DNA of 30,517 nucleotides from a virus, in IMG/VR virus record IMGVR_UViG_3300030333_006690, positions 1 through 30,517 of that record, one strand, 5' to 3'. The notes under the pieces were generated by a model that was not told where the DNA came from, ran no database searches, and saw only the letters and a program-made list of their open reading frames with translations. Position numbers and translations under genes: made by a program. Shown here piece after piece: positions 41-26,193 of the stretch. The number at the start of each line of letters is the position of its first letter. The stretch's first letter is position 1.

Positions 41-50
41 GCTTCTGAGG

Positions 51-70
51 TAGTGTACGGGCGTACACTA
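51..70. other. perfect inverted repeat, 9-bp arms with 2-nt spacer
   Basis: TAGTGTACG at 51-59 is the exact reverse complement of CGTACACTA at 62-70. The 2-nt spacer makes a protein-binding operator as likely as an RNA hairpin. A weaker stem (70-76 with 85-91, one G-T pair) followed by T residues lies just to the right and could end plus-strand transcription entering from the left. Confidence 0.65.
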
Positions 71-2162: not shown

Positions 2163-2192
2163 AGTATATAGCGTTTTTACGCTATGTCTATA
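2163..2192 (-). promoter_or_regulatory. hairpin with -10-like sequences at the downstream edge of element B
   Basis: The palindrome ATAGCG...CGCTAT (2168-2184) is conserved at the matching edge of the copy at 4131. Next to it on the minus strand are TATAGA (2192-2187) and TATACT (2168-2163), both similar to -10 boxes. The genes 2113 to 499 start immediately downstream, so a promoter with an overlapping operator is likely here. No clear -35 box is seen. Confidence 0.4.
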
Positions 2193-2864
2193 GTAATCGA
2201 CAGTTTTTTGTTACTACTTGAAAGATACGCGCAATAAAGTTCTTAGGATCTCCGATTGAATAGGCTATTGCGCAGGATTTACGATTGCGCTATAAGTAGA
2301 ATTCAACAGATTTTAAAACCCCTGGTATAGCTAACCAGGTTTTTTAATGCGCCGATTGTCAAATTGACATTGCGCAGGTTTTCATCATATCGCCAATTAT
2401 TGATGCGTTGCCATTTTGACACTGATTCAAAATGCGCACCCGCCGATGGGGGGTTGTATCAAAATCATACATCGAGAAAAGTGACGGTCGCTCGGTTTTC
2501 GAACTCACTACCTCAGAAATTTTTATTTTTAAAGATCGTTATAACCGCCGTACCGTCCGCAGCATTTTTTTAAACACTACGTTAAATAACCGCTGCCGTT
2601 TGCCCAACGCCGCTCACCCTGTTTCTCGAAAAGTATCGGCACAATTATCAGAAAGGTTTTTGCGACGATTTTGGGCTATTTCCAGTTCGCTAGAACCAAG
2701 GTTTTACAACTAAATCTAGGTTTAGGTTGCTTAAAGAAACAGGTGTTTATTTACCTGATTTATCTATAAGTATTTTACGCCGAGCTCCTGCATTATTTGA
2801 TGCAGTTTAGACTACCCCTGGCATATCTGTTTTTGAAAACCGTTTTCAGCGACCCCCTACCCCC
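2167..2864 (-). repeat. ~700-bp non-coding element, copy B
   Basis: From 1997 to 2867 there is no gene I trust apart from the 39-aa candidate. Most of this stretch is one copy of a long element repeated at 4131-4826. Positions 2690-2827 match 4652-4789 with about 23 differences and no gaps by hand count. Other blocks agree around CTACCTCAGAA (2508-2518), GAGAAAAGTGAC and GATACGCGCAATA. Conserved parts include a CTGCAT/ATGCAG hairpin near 2788-2805, G-tracts (2448-2453) complementary to C-tracts (2853-2864), and competing GCGC stems (2229-2290). The frames are not conserved between copies, so it does not encode a protein. A structured RNA, a mobile non-autonomous element, or a regulatory/replication unit are all possible. 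Confidence 0.75.
2317..2345. terminator. bidirectional intrinsic terminator inside element B
   Basis: CCTGGT (2321-2326) pairs with ACCAGG (2334-2339) around a 7-nt loop. T residues follow on the plus strand, and a GGTTTT tract follows on the minus strand. It would stop read-through from the DNA ligase gene and lies upstream of the presumed promoter of the next block. The copy at 4131 has no obvious equivalent. Confidence 0.6.
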
Positions 2865-2867
2865 TAG

Positions 2868-3770
2868 TTATGCCCCTAATACATCGGCAAGTGTTTCTAT
2901 ATTATCACCGTCGGCAAGATCAGGACGTAAACGAGTAATGTGAGCAAACCTTGGTCGAAGCTTAACCCCGTGTTTCATAAACCTACATTCCACGTATCCA
3001 CCCAAATACTGATCTCGTTTACACCAGGTATCATCGAGCGTTAACCCAGCAGCAGGTTTTGCAGCGTACTCTATCCCGTCGGATGATTGAAGCAGAAAAC
3101 TTCCAATTTTCGAGGTACGTTTGCCGCCTTTCATCATTTGCTTAAAACCGACAATTTTAGAATCTATGCTCACCCACTGCTTAAGCTTATAGATGATGTT
3201 CTGCTTCATAGTAGCTCGACCATTTTTATATTGGCTCTCGGGATTCCGCATAATCAAACCTTCGAATCCCTGGTCAATTGATTGACCGAACAGAATGTTT
3301 AAATCGTTGTCATTATTGATTTGATATTGAACGACAGGTGCAACTCTGTTTAGATGCCGATACCGACGCACAGTTTCGTCGTATCGCACTTTAAACGGTT
3401 TAGTCGTTTGATTATTCCACTCGTCCAGGGTGCATGAATCGAACGCATAGAACCTTATAGACTCGTTAATATCATTACCACGGATATTTGAAATTAACTG
3501 ATCAAATCTAAGGTTTCGAGAATATATCTCACCATCGATAATCGAATTGTTTTTGCGTGCTTCCGCAATTGCCTCTTCAAAGTATTGTTCCAGTTCAGCG
3601 TTAAACCGTTTCCAGTTTCTAGAATATATTCCGTCCGGGGTTATCACCGCTCGTACACCGTCGAACTTTGCCGATGCCATTAACGGGTATTTGTCGTGGT
3701 AAAAACCACTTTGAATTTCAGGTGATTTGTTAGGAGCTAACAGTAGTTTTTGATTTTGTACGTTGTTCAT
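2868..3770 (-). CDS. ATP-dependent DNA ligase
   Basis: The enzyme seals nicks in duplex DNA through a ligase-adenylate intermediate. Motif I is KFDGVR at residues 35-40 (Lys35 takes the AMP). Motif III is IDGEIY near 78-83, motif IV is EGLIMRN at 170-176, and motif V is YKLKQW at 194-199. An OB-fold-like domain fills the remaining third. At 300 aa it is compact, like small phage ligases of the T7 type. A GGGGGA site 8 nt upstream fixes the start, and ATGA couples it to the small zinc-ribbon gene. It probably joins replication and recombination intermediates of the phage. Element B begins at its stop codon. Confidence 0.93.
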   Translation of the reverse strand: MNNVQNQKLLLAPNKSPEIQSGFYHDKYPLMASAKFDGVRAVITPDGIYSRNWKRFNAELEQYFEEAIAEARKNNSIIDGEIYSRNLRFDQLISNIRGNDINESIRFYAFDSCTLDEWNNQTTKPFKVRYDETVRRYRHLNRVAPVVQYQINNDNDLNILFGQSIDQGFEGLIMRNPESQYKNGRATMKQNIIYKLKQWVSIDSKIVGFKQMMKGGKRTSKIGSFLLQSSDGIEYAAKPAAGLTLDDTWCKRDQYLGGYVECRFMKHGVKLRPRFAHITRLRPDLADGDNIETLADVLGA

Positions 3771-3922
3771 TTTAGTTCCCCCGTGTCAGAATCTTTTTGC
3801 GGATCATCACGCCAATTTAAATATCTCATGTAATCTATGCATGCATTTTGAACCACATGCCAATCGTCACCATTTTTTTCTACTTCGGGGCATGTACCCC
3901 CACAAAATTTACACTCGTACAT
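3767..3922 (-). CDS. small zinc-ribbon-like protein (51 aa)
   Basis: A 51-aa protein with CKFCGGTC near the N-terminus and one later Cys, followed by an acidic tail. It could hold a single zinc ion, although a full second CxxC is missing. Its ATG lies in the TAATG overlap with the upstream stop and has AAGGAA about 9 nt ahead. Its TGA forms an ATGA overlap with the ligase start. This double coupling makes it a convincing gene despite its size. Confidence 0.75.
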   Translation of the reverse strand: MYECKFCGGTCPEVEKNGDDWHVVQNACIDYMRYLNWRDDPQKDSDTGELK

Positions 3923-4086
3923 TATGTGGTTTCCTTTGCGTTAAATTCGTCGTAAACCTCTTCTAATAATCGCGTGTAAGTACCTGCGCCTAACACCATG
4001 TCAATTGCCCTATCCACCCGCATACCGTCATTGATATACCCAGCGATAATCGTGCTGATATAAACAAATTTCTGATCCTGATTCAT
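3922..4086 (-). CDS. hypothetical small protein (54 aa)
   Basis: A helical 54-aa protein (MNQDQKFVYISTIIAGYIN at the start, acidic C-terminus). No family is recognised. The ATG at 4086 is chosen because GGAG lies about 10 nt upstream. The longer frame starting with GTG at 4125 has no ribosome site and would run into the repeat edge. It is the first gene of the block that ends with DNA ligase. Confidence 0.65.
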   Translation of the reverse strand: MNQDQKFVYISTIIAGYINDGMRVDRAIDMVLGAGTYTRLLEEVYDEFNAKETT

Positions 4087-4130
4087 TGCTATGTTCTCCA
4101 AATATTTATTACTAAGTACGACCACAGTTT

Positions 4131-4826
4131 ACATAGTGTTTTTTCGCTATGCAATAGGTATCGAATAGTTTTTGGTCAAACTTTAGAGATACGCGCAATA
4201 GCTATTTGTGAATTGCCGAAAGAATACCTATTGCGCAGGCTATCAACCTGCGCTATGGTTGAGAATTAGACGGAATGATATCGCCTTCGTGATACCAGGA
4301 ACGCATTCACATGCGCTCAATGCCGATCTGACATTGCACAATGTTTAATCATCAGCTGCGTTTACGATTTTTGCCAACCTGGCAGCGATGCATTTTTATG
4401 CACCGCCCATGGGGGGGTGTATGAAATTCGTACAGCAAGAAAAGTGACCGTCGTTCCGATTTCAGAATGACTACCTCAGAAAATTGCAGCTTTAGAAATT
4501 GTTATGACCGCTATACCGCCCGACGAATGTTCCCAACACGATATCCATGGCGATTCGGCTCTAGGACGAAGGCAGCGACTACTATTCATGGCCAACTGTG
4601 AGTACAACTTTACAAGCCGTTTATTAGCGTTTTTGGCTTAATTTATCGCCTCTAGAACCAAGGTTTTTGAAGTAAATCTACGCTTAGGTTGCTTGGAAAA
4701 ACGGGTCTTTATTAACCTGATCTATCTATACGTATTCTACGCCCATCAGCTGCATTATTTAACGCAGTTTGAATTACCCCTGGCATATCATTTTTCAGAA
4801 GTGGATTTTTCAGACCCCCCACCCCC
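4131..4826 (-). repeat. ~700-bp non-coding element, copy C
   Basis: From 4087 to 4787 no gene is seen. The stretch is the second long copy of the element described at 2167-2864. It has the same order of parts: an edge hairpin CATAGTG/CGCTATG (4131-4150), GATACGCGCAATA, alternative GCGC stems, a TGCGC...TTGCACA region, GGGGGGG (4411-4417), CTACCTCAGAA, the 138-bp conserved block 4652-4789, and C-tracts at 4815-4826. Several stems keep pairing through changes; for example GTACA replaces ATACA opposite TGTAT. Its right end lies inside the 3' end of the gene at 4788-5039. Confidence 0.75.
4151..4179 (-). promoter_or_regulatory. candidate minus-strand promoter at the edge of element C
   Basis: TTGACC (4179-4174 on the minus strand) and TATTGC (4156-4151) are separated by exactly 17 nt. 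They would drive the block 4086-2868. The conserved hairpin at 4131-4150 then lies at the start of the transcript or acts as an operator. The -10 match is imperfect. Confidence 0.4.
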
Positions 4827-5039
4827 ATCTGTTGGATACGCTTGGTACATATGAACCCAAGTACCCTGCATGTCTGGACAATGAGCGTATGCTCTCTCAC
4901 CGTCTATTATGATTTCACCTTCGAAATCCATCATGTAGTTTTCTAACGCTTCCGTCGCATTAGCGGCTTCGACTTCACCTCGAAACCAATTGCCGGTAAA
5001 ACCTTTTTGACCTTTTACTTCTCGCAACTCGAACATCAT
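4788..5039 (-). CDS. hypothetical protein whose C-terminus reads into element C
   Basis: An 83-aa soluble protein with a beta/alpha pattern (EVKGQKGFTGNWFRGEV, then EGEIIIDGERAYAHC). No family is recognised. It starts at one of two adjacent ATGs with AGGAA just upstream, immediately after the stop of the HTH gene. The last 12 residues or so (GGGGSEKSTSEK) are encoded by the terminal G-rich part of the repeat at 4131-4826. The natural C-terminus may therefore have been replaced when the element arrived. Confidence 0.7.
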   Translation of the reverse strand: MMFELREVKGQKGFTGNWFRGEVEAANATEALENYMMDFEGEIIIDGERAYAHCPDMQGTWVHMYQAYPTDGGGGSEKSTSEK

Positions 5040-5040
5040 C

Positions 5041-5298
5041 TTATTTCCTCAACCTAATATTAGTCTCTTTACCAGTAGCCGCATGTTTGATGGTAAGCGT
5101 CACAGTAAACCCAAGTGCATTTAACAATAGCAGCAACTTATCTAACGACGCTGAAAATCCTTTCTTCAACGTCTGGTTTAGCCCGGACTGACTGCAATCA
5201 GCCGTTTTCGCTAACGCTCGCACGGAAATCCCATCAGCATCTCGCTGTTTGTTAATCAGTTTAACTAACTGATCTTTGTTGTCTTCAAAACACTTCAT
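5041..5298 (-). CDS. HTH (Xre/HigA-like) transcriptional regulator
   Basis: The 85-aa protein has a helix-turn-helix of the phage-repressor type (SVRALAKTADCSQSGLNQTL, about residues 26-45), followed by a leucine-rich helix and a short beta segment. That arrangement is common in small Xre-family regulators and in antitoxins. No toxin-like partner is obvious: the next gene, 4788-5039, does not resemble RelE/HigB. It has its own promoter, which contains two copies of CTATAG (5308-5313 and 5324-5329). These are a plausible self-operator. Confidence 0.8.
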   Translation of the reverse strand: MKCFEDNKDQLVKLINKQRDADGISVRALAKTADCSQSGLNQTLKKGFSASLDKLLLLLNALGFTVTLTIKHAATGKETNIRLRK

Positions 5299-5307
5299 AA
5301 CGCTCTC

Positions 5308-5349
5308 CTATAGCGAATTAATACTATAGCCTACTCACTAGATCGTCAA
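5308..5349 (-). promoter_or_regulatory. promoter and paired CTATAG operator of the HTH gene
   Basis: TTGACG (5349-5344 on the minus strand) is followed by TATAGT or, at 17-nt spacing, TAGTAT. Two copies of the self-complementary hexamer CTATAG lie 16 bp apart, one over the -10 region and one between the promoter and the ribosome site. A regulator dimer bound there would block transcription (inference). Another CTATAG occurs at 2188-2193 at the edge of element B. Confidence 0.6.
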
Positions 5350-6430: not shown

Positions 6431-7288
6431 CTAGTTATTAACACTTAGGTGCGGTTGTCGAAGTTGTTTACTAGCGATTTGTATATATTCTGGATTTAGT
6501 TCGATTCCTATGTACTTACGCCCATTCTCGGTAGCAACTACACCTGTTGTTCCTGTACCGCTAAACGGATCGAGAACCGTTCCCCCCGGAGGACATCCCG
6601 CAACTACACATGGAGCAATTAGGTCTTTAGGAAACACAGCGAAGTGTGCGTCTTTGAACGGTTTAGTGGTAACATTCCACACAGACCTTTTATTCCTGTA
6701 CTTTCTCGCGCCTGGCTCTTTAATAGCTTCGTTATCGAAGTAATATCTTTTTGATTTGGATAACAGAAAGATATACTCGTGTGACTTAGTACACCGATCC
6801 TTTACACTTTCAGGCATAGCGTTTGGTTTGTTCCAAATAATATCCTGCCGGAGAATCCATCCGGCTTTTTGCAACTCAAACGCTACTCTCCACGGTATGC
6901 CTACCAGATTTTTTGCGGGTATGTTTACTTTGCTTCGTATTGGCCTCATTCCGACCGTTGCGTTGGTTTTGTATTGCCTACGACTACCATGCTCAAGACT
7001 TTTGCGATTGGTGTTAGACGGCGAATACGTGTCGCCTAAGTTCAGCCACAAGGTTCCTTTCTTTTTAAGCACTCGTTTAACCTGTTCGAACACATTTACC
7101 AACTCGGCAACGTATTGTTCAATTGATTCCTCTAAACCTATTTGCGTGTCCATTCCGTAGTCACGTAACTGCCAATACGGTGGACTTGTAACGCAGCAAT
7201 CAATTGACTCGTCGTTTATTGTTGGAAGTATATTTCTGCAATCATCACCGAATAGTTGAACTTCCGCTGTTTTAAAACACGCTTTCAT
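6431..7288 (-). CDS. site-specific DNA methyltransferase (TSPPYW, N4-cytosine/N6-adenine type)
   Basis: The 285-aa enzyme would transfer a methyl group from S-adenosylmethionine to an exocyclic amine of a DNA base. The catalytic motif IV is TSPPYW at residues 34-39. The AdoMet-binding motif DPFSGTGTTG is at 240-249, near the C-terminus, the beta-class order. Ser in SPPY is more usual in N4-cytosine enzymes, but N6-adenine enzymes with this motif exist. No cognate endonuclease is adjacent, so it is probably an orphan that protects phage DNA from host restriction or marks it. AGGAT lies upstream of the start, and ATGA couples it to the small zinc-ribbon gene. Confidence 0.94.
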   Translation of the reverse strand: MKACFKTAEVQLFGDDCRNILPTINDESIDCCVTSPPYWQLRDYGMDTQIGLEESIEQYVAELVNVFEQVKRVLKKKGTLWLNLGDTYSPSNTNRKSLEHGSRRQYKTNATVGMRPIRSKVNIPAKNLVGIPWRVAFELQKAGWILRQDIIWNKPNAMPESVKDRCTKSHEYIFLLSKSKRYYFDNEAIKEPGARKYRNKRSVWNVTTKPFKDAHFAVFPKDLIAPCVVAGCPPGGTVLDPFSGTGTTGVVATENGRKYIGIELNPEYIQIASKQLRQPHLSVNN

Positions 7289-8351: not shown

Positions 8352-8532
8352 TCTCGTTCGCATCTTCTTCCTCCTGCGTCTGCTTCAGTTGTAAATACAC
8401 TTCTCTTGTCTCTGCCGCATTGAGACAAAACCAATCTGTCTCTGTTGCTACGGATATTCCGTTCTCATTAACTCGCACAAACGATTGATATACTTTTTCA
8501 TTTGTCCTTAAATCTCTTCTGACTCGTGTCAC
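8335..8532 (-). CDS. hypothetical acidic protein (65 aa)
   Basis: A short protein with a basic N-terminus and a strongly acidic C-terminus (QTQEEEDANENDQ). No family is recognised. It starts with GTG in a GTGA overlap with the stop of the replication initiator gene, with AAGGAG 6-7 nt upstream. The stop-coupled GTG start suggests tightly matched expression with the initiator. Confidence 0.7.
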   Translation of the reverse strand: MTRVRRDLRTNEKVYQSFVRVNENGISVATETDWFCLNAAETREVYLQLKQTQEEEDANENDQSR

Positions 8533-9380
8533 AGTTGGCTCCTTATCTCTTCCATCCGGCTAAACAGCTCTTTTGCCTCTGTCGATTCCTTGTCTTCGAT
8601 CTGCCGATACTTTGTCCGCAGAGAAACATGTTCGATTTCCAGCAGTTCCTGCCGAGTTTGCTCTTTGGTTTTTACAACCGGCTTATAGATCGGAGCGACG
8701 GCTTCATCGACCCACGTTGCCGGGTCATCCTCCCACCGTTCCTGATTGAGCCAGGTTGCTGGGTTGGGGCAGAACTTCCCCCGAGCTTTGCTGCTCTTGG
8801 AAAAATTAGCCGCAGCAGTCAGGATGTGCTTGGCATCGGCTTTCTTGACGGCAGCTTTCCATGAGCGGTTCGCTGCACCTTTGCCGACCTTCTTTGGGTA
8901 CAGTTCCCAGAACTTTGAAAAAGAAACAGAGTATGTTTTTCTTTCTTCTTTATTCTTAACTTCTTTCTTCTTATTCTCGTATGCGCCTGCGTCTGCATTG
9001 GTGTATGCGCTGGTGTCTGCAACCTTGTATGCGCTAGTGTCTGCACCTGCGTCCCACCCATCAGCGTCTTCTGACTGATAAGCACTATATTTCAAGACTT
9101 TAACGTGCGTTCCATGTGTCCCACTGTTGACCCGTATCATGTCTGCCGCCTGAAGCTTGCGAAAATGCCTCATTACAGTGTTTTTATCCACGTCCAAAAC
9201 GCTCGCCGCCTTGCGATAACCCGTGACCATCTCACCTCGTTCGATCAAAATGCCGCTGAGAGTACGGCGTGCTTCCCAGTTACAGCTCATGAGTATCCAC
9301 ACCCATGTCTTGAGCATTGCCGGGTCTCGAAATATCTCGCTTTCCATTAGCTTGCGGTGCAACTTTATATAGCCTGCCAT
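8529..9380 (-). CDS. phage replication initiator (lambda O / DnaD-like)
   Basis: The 283-aa protein has an N-terminal winged-helix domain (residues about 5-95; GYRKAASVLDVDKNTVMRHF is the recognition region). A repetitive low-complexity linker follows (about 112-148). The C-terminal domain has FWELYPKKVGKGAANRSWK and PATWLNQERWED, the signature of phage initiators that recruit the helicase loader. It would bind origin repeats and bring in host DnaB. The linker is encoded by three 24-bp repeats (8979-9050) next to an AT-rich tract, as in the lambda O gene, where the origin lies inside the initiator gene. Confidence 0.87.
   Translation of the reverse strand: MAGYIKLHRKLMESEIFRDPAMLKTWVWILMSCNWEARRTLSGILIERGEMVTGYRKAASVLDVDKNTVMRHFRKLQAADMIRVNSGTHGTHVKVLKYSAYQSEDADGWDAGADTSAYKVADTSAYTNADAGAYENKKKEVKNKEERKTYSVSFSKFWELYPKKVGKGAANRSWKAAVKKADAKHILTAAANFSKSSKARGKFCPNPATWLNQERWEDDPATWVDEAVAPIYKPVVKTKEQTRQELLEIEHVSLRTKYRQIEDKESTEAKELFSRMEEIRSQL
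8917..9050. other. putative replication origin: 24-bp iterons plus AT-rich tract inside the initiator gene
   Basis: Three in-phase 24-bp units start at 8979, 9003 and 9027, each GTATGCGC followed by a variable pair and GTCTGCA or a near match. A long A+T-rich pyrimidine tract (about 8917-8978) adjoins them. The order of iterons then easily melted DNA, placed in the interdomain linker of an O-like gene, matches the lambda origin. Initiator binding is inferred. Confidence 0.6.
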
Positions 9381-26039: not shown

Positions 26040-26193
26040 GTGAAATATCCTCTAAGAAAAAAACAATATGTTGGGGTACGCAAAAACGGCACACCAACGT
26101 AACTATGAAAGTTCCGTTCGTAGTGCCGCTTTCGAGTTGCACTTCACAATTTCGGAGTAGTCTGTAAAGACTACGTGTATTTGACGATAAGCG
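26040..26193 (-). promoter_or_regulatory. structured leader upstream of the capsid gene
   Basis: This 154-bp gap is unusual in an operon with otherwise overlapping genes. On the minus strand it holds a perfect GTAGTCT/AGACTAC hairpin (26157-26174, 4-nt loop). A larger stem-loop (GGCAC paired with GTGCC) comes next and is followed by a TTTTT run. The second could act as a leaky terminator or attenuator that, with a possible internal promoter, gives the capsid gene its own expression level. No promoter boxes are convincing. Confidence 0.5.

Follow-up and report, generated by a model that had tools for sequence, protein, structure and literature searches.

The window, i.e. the whole stretch of DNA that was analysed, a complete virus record of 30,517 bases, contains two copies of a non-coding element of about 700 bp, which represent an old, diverged pair in a marine temperate phage. 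Genes for a terminase, a portal, an HK97-type head protein and an integrase mark this phage as a tailed and temperate one. The element may best be seen as a composite cis-acting control region situated between the early operons, an interpretation with about an even chance of being correct. Among the possibilities listed in the preliminary description, it is thus the regulatory unit, put forward there as an alternative, that offers the best fit, e.g. with regard to the palindromes recurring at fixed places and the strand-neutral character of the mismatches. The element deserves attention since two non-coding units of 700 bp have been kept over a long term by a compact phage.

The first copy, A (2165-2864, minus strand), lies between the stop codon of the ligase gene (2868) and a small gene starting at 2113; the second one, B (4130-4826, minus strand), extends from inside the 3' end of an 83-aa gene to the leader of the next gene, the genes flanking the element being located on the minus strand as well. 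Both copies thus stand between gene blocks, as had been proposed. Their pairwise alignment exhibits 64.8% identity over 701 columns (E about 1e-76; 64.3% when the four copies are compared) with six gaps, every one of a single base, so that the two copies of roughly 700 bp described originally are real. The best-conserved gap-free block of 138 bp, for which about 23 differences had been counted by hand, was reproduced exactly, with 23 differences between 2690-2827 in copy A and 4652-4789 in copy B. The claim that reading frames are not kept also holds: both copies are non-coding, with stop codons in all six frames and mismatches without a 3-base periodicity, which excludes a protein-coding reading of the element in any frame.

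Relatives were found in viral contigs with the pattern AAAGTGACN{20,30}CTACCTCAGAA (i.e. AAAGTGAC..CTACCTCAGAA), the sole pattern that worked; it matched the contigs L101 and L100/L105, which show synteny to the window over its left arm. The preliminary description had made its proposal depend on further copies in related phages, and such copies are present in both L101 (copy C, about 3830-4544) and L105 (copy D). In both, a single element follows the HTH and 84-aa genes and so occupies the B site, the A site being empty; in L101, merely 27 nt separate the ligase gene from the next small gene there. The identities are 58.7% for A-C, 53.8% for B-C and 97.3% for C-D, and since C and D are almost the same, the effectively independent sequences number only three. 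Pattern scans of viral and genome contigs with the best-conserved right block gave no match, nucleotide searches of phage and plasmid records with the element yielded only a chance match of 22 nt, and protein-anchored searches led to relatives of the right arm and to distant gp88 loci lacking the element. Paralogous repeats in L041 turned out to be coding.

The start of the element in copies B, C and D falls inside the coding tail (GGGGS) of the 83-aa gene (4788-5039, minus strand; 84 aa in L101), and copy A begins with the same GGGGS-tail sequence, now located after the stop codon of the ligase gene. The single syntenic element at the B site of both L101 and L105 points to the place downstream of the 84-aa gene as the ancestral one. 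Taken together with the empty A site in L101, the tail carried by copy A shows that A arose by segmental duplication of the region at the B site, the end of the 84-aa gene included. It should be pointed out that A is closer to the outgroup C than B is, which means that the branch of A is the shorter, more slowly evolving one and that A is not a decaying relic. Between the element and the ligase gene there is also a gene-swap site (3767-4086 in the window, 3027-3836 in L101), occupied by two small genes in the window and by one 269-aa gene of an unknown family in L101. In addition, the N6/N4 DNA methylase gene of the window (6431-7288) does not align to its counterpart in L101 (6125-7021), the 298-aa product of which looks, by eye, like a C5-cytosine methylase; over the stretch 6431-7288, L019 gives no alignment, either.

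A search for A/T-spaced inverted repeats revealed that every copy of the element has a 16-bp palindrome, TAGYN8RCTA, at its gene-proximal end; the palindrome occurs as well over the -10 hexamer of the HTH promoter-like sequence and at the start of the small gene. These three places are homologous in the three genomes (window, L101 and L105). The operator-like sites of the window are TAGCGTTTTTACGCTA (2169-2184) at the end of copy A, TAGTGTTTTTTCGCTA (4134-4149) at the end of copy B, TAGTGTTTTTTTGCTA (2113-2128) where the small gene following A has its start codon, with its L101 homologue at 2084, and TAGCGAATTAATACTA (5311-5326), which overlaps the -10 of the HTH promoter-like sequence and has its L101 homologue at 5018; the site at the element end in L101 is found at 3830. 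The palindrome is in excess in the window (5 vs 1.37 expected), and in the two short contigs its counts lie far above those of dinucleotide-preserving shuffles (3 vs 0.24 in L101 and 3 vs 0.26 in L105). Four of the five sites of the window are gathered in its first 5.4 kb; the fifth palindrome, at 26157-26174 (GTAGTCT GTAA AGACTAC), is situated upstream of the head-protein gene, between it and the adjacent gene.

Promoter-like sequences had been proposed for the downstream edge of each copy, and this proved to be true for copy A, where the 16-nt spacer of TAGACA-16-TATACT (2163-2190, minus strand; 10/12) is exactly the operator-like site, but not for copy B, at the edge of which there is no match at 9/12 or better. 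Both lineages retain the HTH promoter-like sequence, TTGACG-17-TAGNAT, in which a TAGYN8RCTA site begins at the -10. Within a given phage the arms of the palindrome are for the most part the same, and they vary from phage to phage (TAGYG vs TAGTCA), the HTH proteins of the two lineages being 47% identical. The candidate binder of these sites is the 85-aa HTH regulator itself (5041-5298, minus strand), recognized by the Pfam family HTH_37 with 28.3 bits (cut-off 27) and, by a weak match, by the transcription regulators in PHROG; searching the PDB sequences with this protein did not reveal any close solved repressor, and its single-sequence AlphaFold model was of a quality too poor to be used. 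A palindrome that recurs, also in the promoter of the regulator, and a DNA-binding regulator encoded nearby are the features of a repressor-controlled operator region, and the plain reading of the TAGYN8RCTA sites would be that they are operators bound by the adjacent, autoregulating HTH protein.

The interior of the element contains further palindromes. Two TGYCANNNTGRCA palindromes are spaced by 51-52 bp in all four copies, the first one of copy B being degenerate; they occupy positions 2357-2369 and 2409-2421 in copy A (52 bp apart) and 4321-4333 (degenerate) and 4372-4384 in copy B (51 bp apart). Exact matches to TGYCANNNTGRCA number three in the window, where 0.14 would be expected, and two in L101, where the expectation is 0.04, all of them inside the elements. 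A distance of 52 bp corresponds to five turns of B-DNA and would suit cooperative binding. The GCGC inverted repeats of copy A (2229-2290) comprise GCGCAATA..TATTGCGC, covarying with L101, and the overlapping GCGCAGG..TTGCGC; those of copy B (4193-4253), GCGCAATAG..CTATTGCGC and GCGCAGG..CCTGCGC, both covary with L101. In GCGCAA..TTGCGC as well as GCGCRGG..CCYGCGC both arms are altered between the lineages. A terminator-like hairpin followed by a T-run (CCTGGT..ACCAGG TTTTTT) is present at 2321-2345 in copy A; as read from the sequences, hairpins occupy this position also in C and D, the one in B being degenerate.

The longest block invariant across all four copies includes the 12-mer ACTACCTCAGAA, at 2507-2518 in copy A and at 4470-4481 in copy B (both plus strand). 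All 12 nt recur, inverted, at 43-54 (minus strand), within a conserved intergenic stretch close to the end of the contig, and this recurrence is seen in L105 as well; the longest match was 8 nt in 300 shuffles of that region and 10 nt in other 130-nt slices of the window. The partial inverted third copy named in the preliminary description did not withstand scrutiny: the best local score of the first 520 bases against copy A is 33, shuffled sequences reach up to 35, and profile searches for a third copy revealed nothing convincing. The 12-mer at 43-54 is thus a shared site rather than a copy of the element. The intergenic segment 1-135, rich in long palindromes, is 93-94% identical in L101 and L105 compared with 65-76% for the nearby early genes, and three contigs from different assemblies end here within 11 bases of one another. 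This coincidence is probably an assembly-graph break; a genome end (cos) might also cause it, but the length of the shared stretch, about one assembly k-mer, makes the graph break more likely. Not far away, at 306-449, there is a 13-bp tandem array of the AGGTAGAGCAAGC type with about 11 copies, absent from both L101 and L105 and adjoining a terminator-like hairpin at 460-479.

The native place of the element is downstream of the HTH/84-aa gene pair, the second copy having arisen behind the DNA ligase gene by segmental duplication. Read as a control region and followed in the direction of the genes, it would consist of the tail of the upstream gene, the conserved inverted repeats, taken as protein-binding sites, the terminator-like hairpin, which A, C and D possess and B has lost, and the 16-bp operator at the end; in copy A this operator would fill the spacer of a promoter serving the gene block that follows. 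Binding of the HTH protein to the 16-bp sites is probable and would repress the promoter of the HTH gene as well as the promoters at the element ends. If the copies are control regions, a regulatory module has been duplicated together with its operator and terminator, so that one switch came to govern an additional gene block, and the copies would also show how operator arms change between phage lineages. There are points that fit less well: a length of 700 bp is unusual for a control region, conserved blocks are found in the half distant from the operator, too, only copy A has a promoter-like match at its end, the assignment of the HTH protein rests on a weak Pfam match, and a reading in terms of DNA alone leaves unexplained some features of the minus strand described below.

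The most serious competitor, although holding the smaller share of probability, is a structured non-coding RNA of large size (roughly 200-700 nt), read in the gene direction and present in two copies, of the GOLLD/ROOL-like kind but of a different family. Folding the alignment gave, against column-shuffled controls, z-scores of -5.7 (plus strand) and -8.7 (minus strand) for the whole element and -7.9 and -11.0, respectively, for columns 101-300, with the coding controls from the same genomes mostly near 0 and one gp88 stretch at -4.8. There are 14 stems of at least 5 pairs (mean 7.9 and maximum 13 in shuffles) and 15 compensatory pairs (5.9 in shuffles). The hairpins of the minus strand are 95.9% paired, compared with 35-51% when slid, and their covariation score of 0.171 (vs 0.105) was attained in 2 of 500 shuffles. 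The strongest point in favour of RNA is a 10-bp helix, including G-U pairs, which the two longest invariant blocks could form on the minus strand; this helix and the higher minus-strand score over columns 101-300 are the features that a DNA-only reading does not explain. Moreover, the G5-T-R-G5 tract is retained in copy A, where it is no longer coding. On the other hand, the departures from Watson-Crick pairing are strand-neutral (6 on the plus vs 7 on the minus strand; a tally of palindromes by hand leaned to the plus strand, but an unbiased count did not), a stricter seed-stem test found the compensatory changes without excess, and the folding energy of a single copy is within the range of the genome. 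Rfam searches gave no match up to E 10 for the window element except for those at chance level, and none up to E 5 for the elements of the relatives. The large structured RNA favoured originally is thus supported in part, by the inverted repeats conserved beyond the controls. On the basis of three effectively independent sequences, identical palindromes at fixed spacing and the inverted 12-mer elsewhere tip the balance towards DNA sites. In its full form—a new large-RNA family of about 450-700 nt which is carried by marine temperate phages, has its end close to a promoter under operator control and became duplicated in one of the lineages—the RNA reading is slightly less probable still; it would add another large phage RNA family.

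A site for replication, partition or packaging (an origin, a centromere-like site or a terminase recognition site) would account for the dense palindromes, the repeated GCGC and TGYCA half-sites and the 12-mer shared with the conserved stretch where three contigs end, but it is improbable. The clear iterons are found in the replication initiator gene (8529-9380), where a 24-bp repeat array of 2.8 copies (8979-9045) is the better candidate and likely the origin; a partition site is not needed by a phage with an integrase, and the coincident contig ends are probably the assembly-graph effect mentioned above. Less probable still is a dead duplication, with A a functionless, decaying relic: A is indeed confined to the lineage of the window, but it is nearer to C than B is, has retained its operator, palindromes and invariant blocks, and shows almost no indels against B. 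The least probable explanation is a mobile non-autonomous element, MITE-like or a transposon remnant, which the preliminary description had offered as an alternative. Two diverged copies in one genome and the lack of A at its site in the relatives would agree with it; no terminal inverted repeats or target duplications were seen at the boundaries, however, the relatives have one copy at one orthologous, syntenic site, A begins inside the duplicated gene tail, and neither phage and plasmid records nor the contigs scanned by patterns gave matches elsewhere.

With regard to known systems, the control region resembles the operators and stoperators of the Cluster A mycobacteriophages in having short sites recurring in promoters and intergenic places and in related phages having a similar but distinct site consensus (PMC6550527). 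Stoperators are, however, 13-bp sites with one predominant orientation and far more numerous (PMC6550527), whereas here there are only 3-5 palindromic sites per sequence and the HTH protein belongs to another family. The start-associated and extended start-associated sequences of Cluster K mycobacteriophages are likewise repeated motifs and imperfect inverted repeats at the starts of a subset of genes (PMC3203893); their sequence is unrelated, the palindrome found here at a gene start recurs as the operator-like site in the HTH promoter, and nothing among them corresponds to the larger part of the 700-bp unit. GOLLD and ROOL are phage RNAs that, like the element, extend over hundreds of non-coding nucleotides and combine conserved hairpins with more variable parts (PMC12286853), but the element has no Rfam match and no tRNA island nearby, and its structure is not strand-specific on the present data. 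Apart from chance-level hits, no covariance-model match to GOLLD, ROOL, OLE or other Rfam families was obtained.

Outside the early region, the segment 12142-12185, just upstream of the integrase gene, contains a sequence, ending GGCTCATAACCCC, which we take to be one half, the 5' one, of a gene for an initiator tRNA. ARAGORN did not report it. The segment is likely to be the core of the attachment site.
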